Shown: positions 1-5,687 of the stretch, in pieces
Layout: every line of letters begins with the position of its first letter
Numbering within the stretch: position 1 is the stretch's first letter
Assembly: GCF_002812955.1 (NCBI RefSeq)
Contig: NZ_PFXK01000009.1
Coordinates: forward strand, 1-64,000
Origin: Vibrio sp. HA2012
GTDB taxonomy: Bacteria > Pseudomonadota > Gammaproteobacteria > Enterobacterales > Vibrionaceae
Length of the DNA stretch: 64,000 bases
Direction: 5' to 3'
Made by a program: the position numbers and the translations under genes
The notes under the pieces: model-generated
The model's input: the letters and a program-made list of their open reading frames with translations, nothing else
Told to the model about the DNA's origin: nothing
The model's database searches: none

Positions 1-641
1 GCAGTAGTGAATTGACCTACTTCATAGAAGAAAGGTGCGTTCCAGATGTGGTGCAGACCGAATGGGATCAGAGAACGTTCAACGATACCGTAGATACCGA
101 ACGCCACTTCAGGAGACTGGTAAGCCGCCCACTCAGAGAATGCAGCGATACCGGCACCGATTGGTTGCCAGATAACAGCCAGAATACCAGCAACCACACA
201 CGCAGCCAGAGAGGTCACGATAGGAACGAAACGTTTACCACCGAAGAAACCAAGATAGGTTGGCAACTGGATAGTGTGGTATTTATTGAACAGCTGAGCG
301 GCAACCAGACCCATGATAACGCCACCGAAAACACCCGTTTCAGTACCCGGAGCGACAACGCCCAGAACACGAACCATGGTCAGGTAACCCAGACCAGCAG
401 CAAGAGCGGCTACCCCATCGTTTTTAGTAAAACCAAGTGCCACACCGATAGCGAACAGCAGTGACATGTTAGCAAATACACCCAGACCAGCTTCGCTCAT
501 AACCTGAGCGACAATATCAGGCAGGAATTTAGCGACTTCTGAGTTACCACCGATACCCAGCAGGATACCAGCAGCAGGCATACAGGCAACAGGAAGCATC
601 AGGCTGCGTCCCATTTTCTGCATAGTACCAAATATGTTCAT
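1..641 (-). CDS. ptsG: PTS glucose-type permease EIIC(B) component, N-terminal part (runs off the window)
   Basis: The minus strand is open from an ATG at 641 to the window edge (about 213 codons) and reads as the membrane EIIC domain of a glucose-family phosphotransferase permease. It starts MNIFGTMQKMGRSLMLPV and contains FAIGVALGFTKNDGVAALAA, YLGFFGGKRFVPI and FGLHHIWNAPF, the EIIC hallmarks shared by PtsG, NagE and MalX. It would carry a sugar across the inner membrane while phosphorylating it; the EIIB domain and C-terminus lie outside. A good ribosome site (GGAGG, about 6 nt upstream) supports the start. The N-terminus resembles NagE slightly (MNI start), but the absence of a long NagE insertion and the internal motifs favour PtsG. 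The gene is divergent from a sugar-related two-component cluster. Confidence 0.8.
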   Translation of the reverse strand, partial: MNIFGTMQKMGRSLMLPVACMPAAGILLGIGGNSEVAKFLPDIVAQVMSEAGLGVFANMSLLFAIGVALGFTKNDGVAALAAGLGYLTMVRVLGVVAPGTETGVFGGVIMGLVAAQLFNKYHTIQLPTYLGFFGGKRFVPIVTSLAACVVAGILAVIWQPIGAGIAAFSEWAAYQSPEVAFGIYGIVERSLIPFGLHHIWNAPFFYEVGQFTT

Positions 642-1152
642 ACGAACCTCCGATAATTAATCTTACTATTGACTAATAAGTAATATTTTAAGGATTTTTA
701 AATAGGTTATTTTTAATTATCAGTGTGCTTAAATAAATTGCTTAGAGGGGGTACTAAGGAATAAAAATGTTCAATCACACCGAAAATAAATGAATTTAAA
801 TTAATGTCTTCTTGACGATAAGTATATTAATAGCTAGTGAGAAATTTTTTCGGGTTCCTCGTCACGTCGAACGTAACATAACGTAACATAGCGCAAGTCT
901 TGCGTAAGAACATGGTAAAGTGCCTGTAAATTTCTATATTTGCTACCTATGAAAGCCTTACCAATGTTGGGTTTATATACTCAGGTAACCTCAGGATACT
1001 TATACAGGTAAGATTATTCTTTCTCGGGCAAGAAATCGGGCTCAGATCACAAAAAGAATTGTCTATCTCATTATTCGGAAACGAAATGAGTGAAAAATGG
1101 TGCCATTTATTAGATTCTTGACCCCATTGTAATCATTCAAGAAGTAATCAGG
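642..1152. promoter_or_regulatory. Divergent intergenic region between ptsG-like gene and response regulator
   Basis: This 511-bp AT-rich stretch holds no convincing gene and must contain both divergent promoters. The clearest structure is a head-to-tail pair of the 10-bp unit ACGTAACATA at 871-880 and 881-890. Ten-bp spaced direct repeats are the usual binding layout of OmpR-family regulators, so they are a candidate operator for the adjacent response regulator (inference). I could not fix a single promoter with confidence. Confidence 0.45.
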
Positions 1153-1884
1153 ATGAACGGAAATATACATACCAATAAACGCATTCTTGTGGTTGATGAT
1201 GATCAGGAGATCAGAGAGCTGCTGGATGAGTATCTGACCAAAGCAGGTTATACTGTGGTACTGGCATCAGAAGGCGAAGAGATGAAGCAGCGTCTGCTGG
1301 AAGGTGAACCGGATCTTATCCTGCTGGATGTGATGATGCCGGGGGATGACGGTTTTACACTATGCCAGTATGTTCGTAAATCTTCGAATGTTCCGATTAT
1401 GATGCTGACCGCTGTGTCAGAAGAGACGGATCAGATTGTCGGTCTGGAAATCGGTGCGGATGACTATGTTGCAAAACCTTTTAGTCCACGCCAGTTAACT
1501 GCACGGATAAAGGCTCTTCTGCGTCGTACACAGGTGACGGAAGTGCCACAAAGCCGCCCTCAGATCATAAAGTTTGCCAATTGGCAGTTACATGTCCAGT
1601 CACATACGCTGAAAAATATGGATGATGGAGAAGAATTTGAGCTCTCTGGTAAGGATTTTACTCTGTTGATGCTGTTTCTGGAGCATCCGAATGAAATACT
1701 GGATCGGGATTCTATTTCACAGGTAATGAAAGGTCGTGATGCACTGCCGATGGAACGTGGTATCGATGTCCAGCTAAGTCGCTTGCGTAACCGGCTGGGA
1801 GACAGTGGTAAAAGTCCTAAACTGATCAAAACCATGCGTGGCGACGGATATATTCTGGCGGCTGATGTCACCTATGAAAATTGA
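1153..1884 (+). CDS. OmpR-family response regulator (GltR-like)
   Basis: This 243-residue protein has a receiver domain (residues about 9-122; acidic pocket VVDDD, phospho-acceptor Asp59 in LLDVMMPG, Lys108 in AKPF) and a C-terminal winged-helix DNA-binding domain (about 140-238, ending TMRGDGYILAADV). It belongs to the OmpR/PhoB family but is not OmpR, which is at 29880-30599. It overlaps the downstream kinase gene by about 11 nt, so the two are translationally coupled partners. The neighbouring GtsA-like sugar-binding protein and the divergent ptsG-like gene suggest it is the counterpart of Pseudomonas GltR, the regulator of glucose uptake genes. Family membership is certain; the glucose link is inference from context. 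Confidence 0.9.
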   Translation: MNGNIHTNKRILVVDDDQEIRELLDEYLTKAGYTVVLASEGEEMKQRLLEGEPDLILLDVMMPGDDGFTLCQYVRKSSNVPIMMLTAVSEETDQIVGLEIGADDYVAKPFSPRQLTARIKALLRRTQVTEVPQSRPQIIKFANWQLHVQSHTLKNMDDGEEFELSGKDFTLLMLFLEHPNEILDRDSISQVMKGRDALPMERGIDVQLSRLRNRLGDSGKSPKLIKTMRGDGYILAADVTYEN

Positions 1885-3370
1885 GGATTATACCGAATGG
1901 TATCCAGAGGGATGGCGGCTGATAAAGGAACAGCTGGCACCGCTGATTCCCCGTTCTCTGGTCTCCCGAACCTTATGGCTGACACTGTTATCTGTGATCT
2001 TAGCTCAGTTGATCGCTACCGGGATCTGGTATACCCAGACCAAATACCGCGAACTGGAGGGCTTACGTTCGACTTCTGCCAGTATGGCGAACAACTTTGC
2101 TTCGACGGTTAACTATTTTCAGTCCCTGCCGACGGAATACCGGCATATTATTCTGGAACAGTTGCGTAATATGGGCGGTACCCGTTTTTTCGTCTCCTTT
2201 AATAAAGAGGAGATCGATATTGAGCCTATACCCAATAATGAGATGAAGCAGGCGGCTATTGAAGTATTTCAGGATGTACTGCAGGAAAAACTGCCCCGCC
2301 TGAAACATATCAATGTGGAATTTTCTCTTCCGGAAAGTCTGCATGTTCTTAGTAACGATATCTTGTTGAGTGACCTGCCTAAATCCTGGGCGCATTATAC
2401 TCTGAGCCTTGAGCCACTTAATCCGCCGATATTGGTGGTACAGATTGAGCTGGCTAAGGATGAATGGTTTTATATTGCAGCCCTGTTACCGTCTCCTTAT
2501 GTGATGATGGAAGATGAAGTTATTTCCAACCAACAGATCTTCTTTATTCTGTTTATTACCGCGTTGTTGATGATCTTTACCTATACTACGGTACGCAATC
2601 AGATTAAGCCGCTGAAACGTCTGGCTCAGGCAGCCAATGCGTTGAGTATGGATATCGATCAGCCGCCACTGAAAGAAGAAGGCGCTTCCGAGCTGATCAC
2701 CGCAACCCAGGCTTTTAACCGGATGCAGATGCGCTTACGGCGTTATATCGAAGACAGAGAACGGCTATTCAGTTCAATTTCACATGACCTGAAAACCCCT
2801 ATTACCCGTTTACGGATCCGGGCGGAGCTGATTGAAGATGAACAGCGGGCCGTGAAATTTAACCGGGATCTGGATGAACTGGAAATGATGGTTAAAGGGG
2901 CTCTTCAGGCAGTGAAAGATACGGATATCCACGAAAATATAGAAGAAGTCGATGTAATGGAACTGCTCTCTGGTATTGCCGAATTGCATAATCGTGAACA
3001 ACCGAGAGTTCATGTTCATCCGGCTCTGCTTTTTCCATTCAGTTGTAAGCCATTGGCTCTGAAGCGCTGTTTATCTAATCTGATTGATAACGGTGTGAAA
3101 TATGGCTACTACGTTACCGTGATCCCGTACGATACTCCGGAAGCTCTGGAACTGGTTATTAATGATGAAGGTCCAGGGATACCACAGGAGCAGATGGAGG
3201 ATGTATTCAAGCCACATTTCCGTATAGCCACAGATAAAGATGGCCATGGCTTAGGGATGGGAATTGCAAAAAGTATAGTGCATGCTCATGGCGGTGAACT
3301 GACGATCCAGAACCGTAAGGAAGGTGGTCTGCAGGTTAGAGTCAGCCTGCCGAGGGCGGCATTAAGTTAA
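1874..3370 (+). CDS. Sensor histidine kinase (GtrS/GltS-like), partner of the preceding regulator
   Basis: This is an inner-membrane sensor kinase of about 498 residues. It has a first membrane helix near residues 33-51, a periplasmic sensing domain of roughly 165 residues, a second helix (IFFILFITALLMIF), a HAMP-like linker, the phospho-acceptor His304 in SSISHDLKTP, and a C-terminal ATPase with the N box (NLIDNGVKYG), DEGPGIP and GLGMGIAKSIV. The reading frame extends upstream to 1838, but ATG 1874 (or 1865) gives the usual short overlap with the regulator gene. Only 30 nt separate it from a periplasmic sugar-binding protein, so that protein may present ligand to the kinase's periplasmic domain (inference). 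Confidence 0.88.
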   Translation: MKIEDYTEWYPEGWRLIKEQLAPLIPRSLVSRTLWLTLLSVILAQLIATGIWYTQTKYRELEGLRSTSASMANNFASTVNYFQSLPTEYRHIILEQLRNMGGTRFFVSFNKEEIDIEPIPNNEMKQAAIEVFQDVLQEKLPRLKHINVEFSLPESLHVLSNDILLSDLPKSWAHYTLSLEPLNPPILVVQIELAKDEWFYIAALLPSPYVMMEDEVISNQQIFFILFITALLMIFTYTTVRNQIKPLKRLAQAANALSMDIDQPPLKEEGASELITATQAFNRMQMRLRRYIEDRERLFSSISHDLKTPITRLRIRAELIEDEQRAVKFNRDLDELEMMVKGALQAVKDTDIHENIEEVDVMELLSGIAELHNREQPRVHVHPALLFPFSCKPLALKRCLSNLIDNGVKYGYYVTVIPYDTPEALELVINDEGPGIPQEQMEDVFKPHFRIATDKDGHGLGMGIAKSIVHAHGGELTIQNRKEGGLQVRVSLPRAALS

Positions 3371-3400
3371 TTTTTTTATTTTTTTTCAGGTAAGTTGAGT

Positions 3401-4645
3401 ATGTTTGTCAGATTATTATTCCGGTTAGGTATCACACTGTTCAGCCTTTCCGTTTCAGCCAGTGAGCTGGAGGTTCTGCACTGGTGGACCTCCGGAGGGG
3501 AGGCTCGCTCGGCGCAGTTACTTAAGAGCACGATGGAGGCTCAGGGACATGTATGGAAAGATTTCGCTGTTGCCGGGGGCGGGGGTGAAAGCGCCATGTT
3601 GGTATTAAAAGCCCGGGCTGTTTCCGGTAACCCTCCGACAGCAGCACAGATCAAAGGGCATGATATTCAGGAGTGGGCAAAACTGGGTTTTTTAACCAGC
3701 CTGAATGATATGGCTCAGACTGATCAGTGGGACAGCCTGTTACCTGAAGTCGTGTCCTCTACGATGAAATACCAGAATAAATATGTGGCAGTTCCGGTCA
3801 ATATTCACCGAACCAACTGGCTGTGGGCAAATCCGGAGATATTTCGCAAAGTCGGTGTCTCTCTTCCCCGTTCACTGGATGAATTCTTTGCTGTTGCCGA
3901 TGCGATTAAGGCGGCCGGTTATCTTCCTCTGGCTCACGGCAGTGAGTCCTGGCAGGATGTGACTCTGTTTGAAGGTGTCGCTCTGGCGGTATTGGGAAAA
4001 GAAGGATACCGGAAGGCTTTTGTTGATCTGGATATGGAAACGCTCTCCAGTCAGAAAATGACGGAGGTATTTCGTTATTTTCTAAAGTTTCGTGACTATA
4101 TCGATCCACAGGCACACGGCAGAGACTGGTCTGTTGCAACCAATATGGTTGGCAGTGGTCAGGCAGCCATGCAACTTATGGGAGACTGGGCCAAAGGTGA
4201 ATTTACTGCCACCGGAAAAATAGCCGGTAAGGATTATGTTTGTATTGCGGCTCCGGGAACCGAGGGACTGTTTAGTTATAACATTGACAGTTTTGTCTTC
4301 TTTAAATCCCCGGAAGGGATCCAGAAAGAGGGGCAGGAGGCGTTGGCTCAGTCGATTATGGCACAGCCTTTTCAACGGGAGTTTAGTGCAGCTAAAGGTT
4401 CTCTTCCGGCCAGAACAGATGTTCCGGAAGAAAGCTTTGATCTTTGTTCCCGATCTTCTGTTTCCGCATTTCAGCAGGCATATCAGCATGATGGTCTATT
4501 GCCCAGCCTGTCTCAGAGTATGGCAACCACCAGTTACGTGCTGAGTGCCATTTCTGATGTGGTAACGAATTTTTTCCACGATGCAGATGCGGATCCGGAA
4601 AAAGCGGCAGATCGCCTGGCTCGTGCCATTAAAGCCGCTTTGTAA
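3401..4645 (+). CDS. Periplasmic sugar-binding protein, GtsA-like (glucose/mannose ABC type)
   Basis: This secreted protein of about 414 residues begins with a signal peptide (MFVRLLFRLGITLFSLSVSA, likely cleaved before SELEV). The mature part carries the signature of the Pseudomonas glucose-binding protein GtsA: VLHWWTSGGE, AVAGGGGESAM, PVNIHRTNWLWANPE, LPLAHG.ESWQD, MGDWAKGEF and YNIDSFVFF. Such proteins normally feed an ABC permease, but no permease or ATPase gene follows; the next gene is convergent and overlaps this stop by 17 bp. It is therefore either a sensing subunit for the adjacent kinase or serves a distant transporter. A TTG at 3395 is an alternative start; ATG 3401 fits the AGG at 3388 better. 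Confidence 0.87.
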   Translation: MFVRLLFRLGITLFSLSVSASELEVLHWWTSGGEARSAQLLKSTMEAQGHVWKDFAVAGGGGESAMLVLKARAVSGNPPTAAQIKGHDIQEWAKLGFLTSLNDMAQTDQWDSLLPEVVSSTMKYQNKYVAVPVNIHRTNWLWANPEIFRKVGVSLPRSLDEFFAVADAIKAAGYLPLAHGSESWQDVTLFEGVALAVLGKEGYRKAFVDLDMETLSSQKMTEVFRYFLKFRDYIDPQAHGRDWSVATNMVGSGQAAMQLMGDWAKGEFTATGKIAGKDYVCIAAPGTEGLFSYNIDSFVFFKSPEGIQKEGQEALAQSIMAQPFQREFSAAKGSLPARTDVPEESFDLCSRSSVSAFQQAYQHDGLLPSLSQSMATTSYVLSAISDVVTNFFHDADADPEKAADRLARAIKAAL

Positions 4646-5534
4646 AAAAGCGTAATGTTGGAAACTGCAATTGCTGAACCACCAGTCCGCTAATAATCAG
4701 AAATAGTCCGCTAATGGTGGACGGGTGAATCGTTTCCCCGATGATCTGTGCCAGCAGAAACAGGGAGATAAAAGGCGATACAAAAATCAGATTACTGATC
4801 CGGGATGTATTTCTGGTTGATTTTAATGCGGTCAGCCAAAGCACAAAAGTGATGCCCATTTCGAACAATCCAACATAACTGACGGCTGCCCATTTGCTTA
4901 ATGCGGATGGCCAGCCTGCCCCTTCATACAGGGTTAGTGCTACCGCAAACGGCAGTGCCAGACTGAACCCCAGCAATACGCTTACCAGCGGATCCGCCGT
5001 GTTTTTAGCATTGAGGATCCAGTAACCGGCCCATAGCAGGGTAGAAAGCAGAGCGAGTCCGACACCTAACGGGTTGTCGAAATGTAATGACAGAAGATGG
5101 CCTTTTGTTGCAATAATGACAACACCAGAATAGCCCAACAGGCAGGCCAGCCAGTCCTGTTTACGGATTTTTTGTCCCAGAAACAGCGCTGCCATGATGG
5201 TAAGGGTAACGGCCCAGCTGTAATTGATGGGCTGGGCCAGTGAAGCAGGAAGCAGCGTATAGGCTTTAAACAGGATCAGGTAGTAAGCTAACGGATTAAT
5301 TAGGCCCAGCAACAGAAAATACAGAGGTCTGGCGGTGAATGTGGGAACTACCTGTTTCAGTTTTCCCTGCATGAAACAGAGTATCCCCAGTGTGAGAACC
5401 GATAGGGTACTGGCGACGGTCAGCATCTGAACCGGTGTGAACGCTGTCAGTGTGAGTTTAAATGCTGTCGCAACAGTTGACCACAGCAGTACTGCTGTAA
5501 GCGCAAAGCCGAATGCCCGGCGTTCATTGATCAT
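4629..5534 (-). CDS. EamA/DMT-family membrane transporter
   Basis: This 301-residue inner-membrane protein has about ten predicted hydrophobic helices in two EamA-type halves, as in drug/metabolite exporters such as RhaT and YdcZ relatives. The first helix starts AFGFALTAVLLWSTVATAFK, and the PINYSWAVTLTIMAAL segment is typical of the family. The substrate cannot be told from sequence. The frame is open further upstream, but ATG 5534 (MINERRAFGF) has an AGGAG about 8 nt before it, so I place the start there. Its 3' end overlaps the convergent sugar-binding protein gene by 17 bp. It appears to be a single-gene transcript. Confidence 0.85.
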   Translation of the reverse strand: MINERRAFGFALTAVLLWSTVATAFKLTLTAFTPVQMLTVASTLSVLTLGILCFMQGKLKQVVPTFTARPLYFLLLGLINPLAYYLILFKAYTLLPASLAQPINYSWAVTLTIMAALFLGQKIRKQDWLACLLGYSGVVIIATKGHLLSLHFDNPLGVGLALLSTLLWAGYWILNAKNTADPLVSVLLGFSLALPFAVALTLYEGAGWPSALSKWAAVSYVGLFEMGITFVLWLTALKSTRNTSRISNLIFVSPFISLFLLAQIIGETIHPSTISGLFLIISGLVVQQLQFPTLRFFTKRL

Positions 5535-5687
5535 CGATTTCTCCTTATGTGGATAAATCAGTTTAACGCTTTGATTCAAACAGTCTAGCATCCGTACTGA
5601 AGACACTCTGGTATAGACTCGATAAAAACTGGACATCCATCCAGTACATTAATACCATCAAACCAGTAACAACAGATGCAGGCTTAA

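Follow-up and report, generated by a model that had tools for sequence, protein, structure and literature searches.

The window analysed here, 64,000 nucleotides of Vibrio sp. HA2012 (contig NZ_PFXK01000009.1, positions 1 to 64,000 of the forward strand), begins with a glucose-type phosphotransferase system (PTS) gene, ptsG, which diverges from genes for a GltR-like response regulator (RR), a GtrS/EnvZ-like sensor kinase (HK) and a GtsA/GltB-family sugar-binding protein (SBP). We think it likely that these genes form a GltB-GtrS-GltR-type module lacking an ATP-binding cassette (ABC) transporter, in which the SBP would serve as a transport-free sugar co-receptor that controls the PTS gene. This reading draws on the genes themselves, their conserved layout, the lack of a close GtsB homolog in the genome, a largely retained sugar pocket and a conserved repeat block upstream of ptsG, all of which can be read directly from the sequence.

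As the preliminary description of this DNA had it, RR, HK and SBP are spaced as one operon (the first two genes overlap by 11 nt and a 30-nt gap separates the last two), ptsG reads away from them on the other strand, and the SBP gene ends in a convergent overlap, which is 17 nt long and is made with an EamA gene (Table 1). Its remark that no permease or ATPase gene follows the SBP gene is likewise correct for this locus. The pair of signalling proteins belongs to the GtrS-GltR family, with an OmpR-family RR that has the phospho-acceptor Asp and an EnvZ-type HK with a periplasmic domain and an H-box. The SBP, earlier called GtsA-like, matches the structure of the P. putida glucose-binding protein (5dvf) without gaps over residues 21–413 (481 bits, E 1.7e-143), which confirms that identity; its signal peptide was assigned by eye. 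Because no permease gene follows it and the GtsB matches in the genome do not exceed 26% identity, we regard the SBP as a homolog of the Gts/Glt importer protein and not as a subunit of such an ABC importer.

Table 1. Features of the ptsG/RR-HK-SBP locus, in window coordinates
Feature	Position	Strand	Family or basis
ptsG, glucose-type PTS IIBC, 5′ part (213 codons)	1..641	minus, ATG at 641	PTS_EIIC, NCBIfam
Predicted -10-like element for ptsG, reading TATACT on that gene's strand	821..826	minus	partly conserved in gap alignments
Operator-like block, tandem 10-bp repeats; core 871-888, ACGTAACATAACGTAACA	861..896	no strand	gap alignment
GltR-like response regulator (RR), 243 aa	1153..1884	+	Response_reg + Trans_reg_C; phospho-acceptor Asp59
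GtrS/EnvZ-like sensor kinase (HK), 498 aa	1874..3370, ATG at 1874	+	HAMP + HisKA + HATPase_c; His304
HK periplasmic domain and parts of two membrane helices, residues 50-232	2021..2569	+	39-sequence alignment A1; AlphaFold2 model
GtsA/GltB-family sugar-binding protein (SBP), 414 aa, proposed co-receptor	3401..4645, ATG at 3401	+	SBP_bac_1
EamA gene	4629-5636	opposite to SBP	EamA

Window position 1 is the first base of contig C21 of the 3.76-Mb genome, and the ptsG frame is open to this edge. The best NCBIfam model for the 213 codons present is PTS glucose IIBC, and over these 213 aa the protein is 97.7% identical to PtsG of Vibrio albus. Full-length relatives of the truncated window copy (L041 and L121) exceed the cut-offs of both glucose IIBC models. 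V. albus has two tandem ptsG genes (L121:6989-10113), whose proteins are identical over 462 residues and each of which has the operator-like block, and perhaps a similar doubling caused the assembly break inside the window ptsG. An EIIA-Glc-type partner is present in the form of one PTS_EIIA_1 gene (C20:189078-189452).

The available text of Xu, Cao and Lan (2021, PMC7927077) reports that P. aeruginosa GltB binds the GtrS periplasmic domain with a KD of 0.1 µM and is needed for activation by glucose, that exchange of its pocket Trp, Trp or Asp abolished signalling, and that GltR, with the published motif GTNACAAA, activates the gltB operon. Activation of this kinase family by an SBP is thus already known from that source. 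Like this system, the window has a homologous SBP, a periplasmic-domain kinase and an OmpR-type RR, and GTNACAAA fits the repeat unit of the window block. Unlike it, where the SBP gene is part of a GltR-controlled ABC operon (gltBFGK-oprB), the window SBP gene stands in the kinase operon, with a predicted PTS target and no ABC genes.

In the proposed scheme, a sugar, most likely glucose, would enter the periplasm and close the SBP; the loaded SBP would dock on the HK periplasmic domain; HK would phosphorylate RR; and RR would bind the tandem GTAAC repeats of the block and activate ptsG, which diverges from it, and probably also the operon that encodes RR itself, so that sugar outside the inner membrane would lead to greater PTS capacity. 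In this scheme the ligand, the docking, the binding of RR to the block and the activating sign are steps that we infer. The earlier proposal that the SBP feeds the kinase gains support from the P. aeruginosa homologs, as far as the available text of PMC7927077 describes them, and from the comparative finding that SBP and kinase remain together at loci where GtsBC have gone (below).

The arrangement in the window is a conserved variant. At least 133 of 196 genomes of the genus have an SBP of the family at E≤1e-20. The comparison draws on 60 stretches that surround selected matches to the SBP or to ptsG, among them only part of the weaker SBP matches (35–37% identity). A ptsG query of the same 196 genomes, whose list does not include the truncated window copy, gave eight genomes at ≥92% identity and none between 85 and 92%, and all eight have the divergent RR-HK-SBP genes. 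This layout, which we call type B1, was kept in 10 of 10 distinct Vibrio genomes seen with ptsG at ≥88% identity, with no ABC genes after the SBP, a recurrence that is more than chance. The nearest named relative among the loci read is V. albus, whose strain E4404 (L121) shows identities of 88, 94, 91 and 81% for ptsG, RR, HK and SBP, respectively. The next five ptsG genes of the sample (80–85%; L091-L095) are located elsewhere and have neither the module nor the block upstream. Both trees unite type B1 in one clade, with support of 99/94 for SBP (10 rows) and of 100/100 for HK, although several branches outside B1, and that of L071, are long; L114, L115 and L116 come from the same genomes as L071, L072 and L041 and were excluded from the trees and from the exact-repeat count below, and L224 is not in the tree.

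In Photobacterium the RR-HK-SBP module is present away from ptsG in all 10 genomes searched (the genome of L123 is not one of them). No GtsBC or PTS gene was seen in the stretches read around these modules, of which L218 and L223 cover just 0.7 and 2 kb past the SBP and L224 stops within it. In L221, 2.8 kb upstream and on the opposite strand, there is a sugar ABC operon that is unrelated and has an SBP of its own.

A complete gtsBCK set elsewhere in the genome that depends on this SBP had been named as an observation that would refute the sensing reading, and the window genome has no GtsB above 26% identity: the GtsB query returned nothing at E≤1e-30 and, at looser settings, four CUT1 permease matches of 19–26% identity. 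These four were inspected and set aside. Three of their loci carry an SBP gene of their own, and the fourth, a MalF-MalG-MalK locus, has a MalF-P2 domain, which is specific for MalE; here MalK is divergent from MalF-MalG (L203:2773-7109, contig C15 of the window genome), and no malE-like or other SBP gene was found among the open reading frames scanned in 11 kb. At E≤1e-30 there is also no GtsB in V. albus or in nine of 10 Photobacterium genomes, and the tenth has a 29% match. The window genome contains two other SBPs of the family, on contigs C16 (L058) and C1 (L199), and all three of its family SBPs adjoin a receptor gene (kinase or chemoreceptor) and none a permease gene. The C16 SBP follows a chemoreceptor gene (L058:8588-11849), and a chemoreceptor with an orphan SBP is also found in L086 and L088; such pairs are probably sugar taxis pairs. 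P. aeruginosa GltB also binds chemoreceptors (PMC7927077, available text), which fits these gene pairs.

In the window, 511 bp separate ptsG from RR. Only one block is clearly conserved among nine aligned ptsG-RR gaps (340–632 bases as cut, ~46 of these flanking). It reads GTCACG..AACGTAACAWAACGTAACA..GYGCAA in most rows, is arranged as a tandem GTAAC-N5-GTAAC, and sits 34 bases upstream of the TATACT-like -10 of ptsG. The pattern ACGTAACANNACGTAACA fits all nine gaps with 0–2 mismatches (0 and 1 in V. albus), and its sole exact match in the window genome is the block before ptsG. At two mismatches there are two further genome sites (C12:468767 and C15:368668) vs. one for the reversed control, so we claim no wider regulon; in the loci compared, four more matches with 2–3 mismatches lie away from ptsG (L071:4102, L072:5052, L092:12744 and L103:5708). 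Of the 10 B1 genomes, five have GTAACAAA exactly and the other five, including the window, have GTAACATA, which differs by one base; the ptsG promoter thus has candidate sites of the GTNACAAA type. In V. albus the block lies 236 and 242 bases from the two ptsG genes, and the second copy has no adjoining RR gene, which is the strongest argument for assigning the block to ptsG. The exact repeat GTTACN5GTTAC occurs 26 times in 2.35 Mb of loci, and 18 of these matches point at a ptsG-family gene ≤450 bases downstream (11 from B1, five from four of the 11 Photobacterium loci and two from distant ptsG genes, L133 and L175); as this set of loci is rich in ptsG, the count is not an unbiased one. The conserved GltR-like block and its doubling with V. 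albus ptsG, together with the PTS-linked B2 loci described below, favor the earlier suggestion that the module may control the PTS gene. Directly adjoining the block, both the window (890-912) and L121 have a palindrome, TTACGCAAGrCTTGCGC; it is not kept in L040, L041 and L071 and is possibly the site of a second regulator.

The same sensor genes occur with other transport partners. In type A (16 loci) RR, HK and SBP are accompanied by GtsB, GtsC and an ATPase, in the same sensor gene order as in the window (for example L047 and L050) except in L056, where RR and HK are last. The SBPs are 57–62% identical to the window SBP (47% in L056). Unlike the window, ABC genes follow in type A, and a site TGTAACN6GTTAC (≤1 mismatch) stands between HK and SBP in 15 of the 16 loci vs. 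none of the 10 in B1; 10 of 14 aligned type A rows have another TTAC 11 bases downstream of this site. This HK-SBP site is found in none of 10 Photobacterium and none of three Psychromonas loci, and in type C (below) in one (L075) of the 13 loci with a measurable gap; in L083, which has no kinase gene, one precedes the SBP. The RRs of types A, B1, C and Photobacterium have a nearly identical recognition helix region, ERG(I/L)DVQLSRLR. Three SBPs (L098, L099 and L104) have adjoining ABC genes and no adjoining kinase gene.

In type B2 the RR-HK-SBP genes are diverged, the SBP being only 33–42% identical to that of the window. The C1 SBP of the window genome (L199) belongs to such an RR-HK-SBP-PTS IIBC operon, and V. 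albus has the same operon (L229). Like the window, these loci have no ABC genes and adjoin a PTS IIBC gene (13 of 13 loci read); they differ from it in the SBP pocket (below), in having another palindrome and in occurring in three gene orders, with the PTS gene downstream (six loci), upstream (two) or divergent (five). Varied gene orders around the same partners indicate a functional tie rather than an inherited neighborhood. The B2 palindrome, TGTAAGN6CTTACA (≤2 mismatches), precedes the PTS gene in 12 of 13 loci and RR in 11 of 13, one site being shared in five loci. It has 25 matches in the 193 kb of the 13 B2 loci, and all 18 of the intergenic ones are at PTS-gene or RR promoters; outside B2 there are 63 matches in 2.20 Mb, several of which are type A sites. 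A version with an 8-base spacer was rejected, since it had 94 genome matches vs. 157 in the reversed control (≤2 mismatches). In Psychromonas, five of 11 ptsG loci have a related kinase, and the full RR-HK-SBP set is convergent on ptsG in L136, L147 and L150; the L136 genome has a 65% GtsB elsewhere.

In type C, RR-HK-SBP are followed by TRAP transporter genes in 12 loci (L044, L053, L054, L074-L079, L081, L082 and L084) and by neither TRAP nor ABC genes in L080 and L083, the latter showing no RR and HK. GtsBC are missing from these loci, which span at least two clades, while RR-HK-SBP remain beside the TRAP genes. Upstream of the TRAP genes, many aligned rows show a GTCATTTTCCACCCAT-like element.

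Of the 12 residues given as glucose contacts in P. putida, the window SBP retains 11, among them the Trp, Trp and Asp described as essential for signalling in P. aeruginosa (PMC7927077, available text). The remaining one, which is H379 in P. putida, is replaced by Gln in the window SBP, in nine of nine Photobacterium rows and in four of four Psychromonas rows; it is His in all 16 type A SBPs, and Gln in six and His in eight of the 14 of type C. In the 10 B1 genomes it is Ala (seven) or Gln (three), so the ligand may not be exactly glucose or the affinity may be tuned. In B2 all 13 SBPs have both K92E and H379D. L224, whose SBP is too short, was excluded from these counts.

Several findings weigh against the co-receptor reading. 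The replaced pocket position in B1 leaves room for a different ligand or affinity. Photobacterium ptsG genes are equally close (88–90%, 11 loci), and none has the module adjoining; the exact repeat precedes only four of these 11. The ABC-linked and PTS-linked sites differ in arrangement, though the recognition helices are near-identical. The sensor half of HK is as conserved as its catalytic half, but six DctB kinases of the same loci behave alike, so this conservation proves nothing and was dropped as evidence for docking. Another group has described P. aeruginosa GltR as a repressor, so the activating sign proposed here comes from the position of the block upstream of the -10. As far as the available text of PMC11113362 goes, P. 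aeruginosa AgtS and AruS were not activated by their neighboring SBPs, and gene proximity is therefore no proof of SBP-kinase coupling. This favors an alternative in which the kinase itself senses a small molecule, as P. aeruginosa GtrS would with 2-ketogluconate (2-KG) and 6-phosphogluconate (6PG), and the SBP is a co-transcribed passenger; direct GtrS ligands have indeed been reported (PMC5902321, available text). We consider it quite unlikely, given that the SBP is retained with the kinase where GtsBC are gone and that in P. aeruginosa GltB was required for glucose activation and 2-KG and 6PG were reported not to be (PMC7927077, available text).

Also against the co-receptor reading, a close GtsB (88–100%) occurs elsewhere in seven of eight sampled B1 relatives (G013 has none), and the module, while independent of an ABC set, often coexists with one. 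The SBP could then still work in transport, loading another ABC permease, with its position here a regulatory convenience, and the 11 kb read at the MalF-MalG-MalK locus of the window genome show no gene for an SBP. This is very improbable: the six of those GtsB operons that were read (L047, L049 and L105-L108) are type A operons that encode an SBP and a kinase themselves, and the window genome offers only the weak CUT1 matches, three with their own SBP and one with the MalE-specific MalF-P2 domain. Because the block sits between two divergent genes, it might instead serve only autoregulation of the RR operon, or be bound by another regulator such as CpxR, whose box GTAAC-N5-GTAAC resembles, with ptsG a bystander. 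The second V. albus ptsG, which has the block and no RR gene, the 18 of 26 exact repeats aimed at ptsG-family genes in that ptsG-rich set, and the absence of the block before the five next ptsG genes without a module make this improbable in our view. A further alternative, unlikely in our view, is that the module senses a sugar other than glucose, such as galactose or a disaccharide, and that PtsG is gratuitously induced or carries that sugar. The H379 position is replaced in all 10 B1 genomes, and beta-galactosidase, alpha-galactosidase and galE-like epimerase genes flank ptsG/RR-HK-SBP in three relatives (L039, L042 and L073), a hint at galactosides. Against it stand the 11 retained pocket residues and the full-length PtsG relatives that exceed the glucose IIBC cut-offs.

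Periplasmic binding proteins that activate a membrane sensor are familiar from LuxP-LuxQ, ChvE-VirA, TorT-TorS and CBP-ChiS; these are not known to be homologous as modules, and none is known to be dedicated to a PTS permease. Titles and abstract openings covered by our literature search, to which most subscription journals do not contribute, included no report of a unit of SBP, two-component system and PTS. Nor did they describe a module of this kind that lacks an ABC transporter and whose position and shared site apparently link it to a glucose PTS gene. More broadly, we lean towards the view that in Vibrionaceae and relatives GtsA-family SBPs gave up transport more than once and now act purely as sensory co-receptors. 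Those paired with a kinase would be linked to glucose-type PTS genes in two or perhaps three lineages at the least (B1, B2 and Psychromonas), and those paired with chemoreceptors probably to taxis. Induction of PTS sugar genes is commonly attributed to the state of the PTS (Mlc, EIIB). Here an outward-facing sensor that incorporates a one-time transporter component seems to control a PTS gene; if so, PTS bacteria would own an extracytoplasmic glucose sensor upstream of the PTS, beside the classical sensing of PTS phosphorylation state. The ABC-linked, PTS-linked and stand-alone versions of the module are natural experiments, with the presumed regulator site placed ahead of the SBP gene in the ABC-linked version and ahead of ptsG in the PTS-linked one, and their comparison makes the release of an SBP from its transporter and the rewiring of a two-component regulon testable.

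The AlphaFold2 model of the HK periplasmic domain has a mean pLDDT of 85.3. A Foldseek search with it gave no match at E≤0.001, and only a RisS-type domain stands out, the nearest solved structure being the RisS periplasmic domain (Z 9.1, Foldseek E 0.017); this RisS-like fold is uninformative on SBP docking. Two GtsA-family SBPs of 641–650 aa (L089:6804-8756 and L090:5535-7460) have an N-terminal extension of ~270 residues, for which a Pfam scan of the L090 protein gave no match. One type A locus (L109:10469-12439, genome G104) has a chemoreceptor gene between RR and HK.

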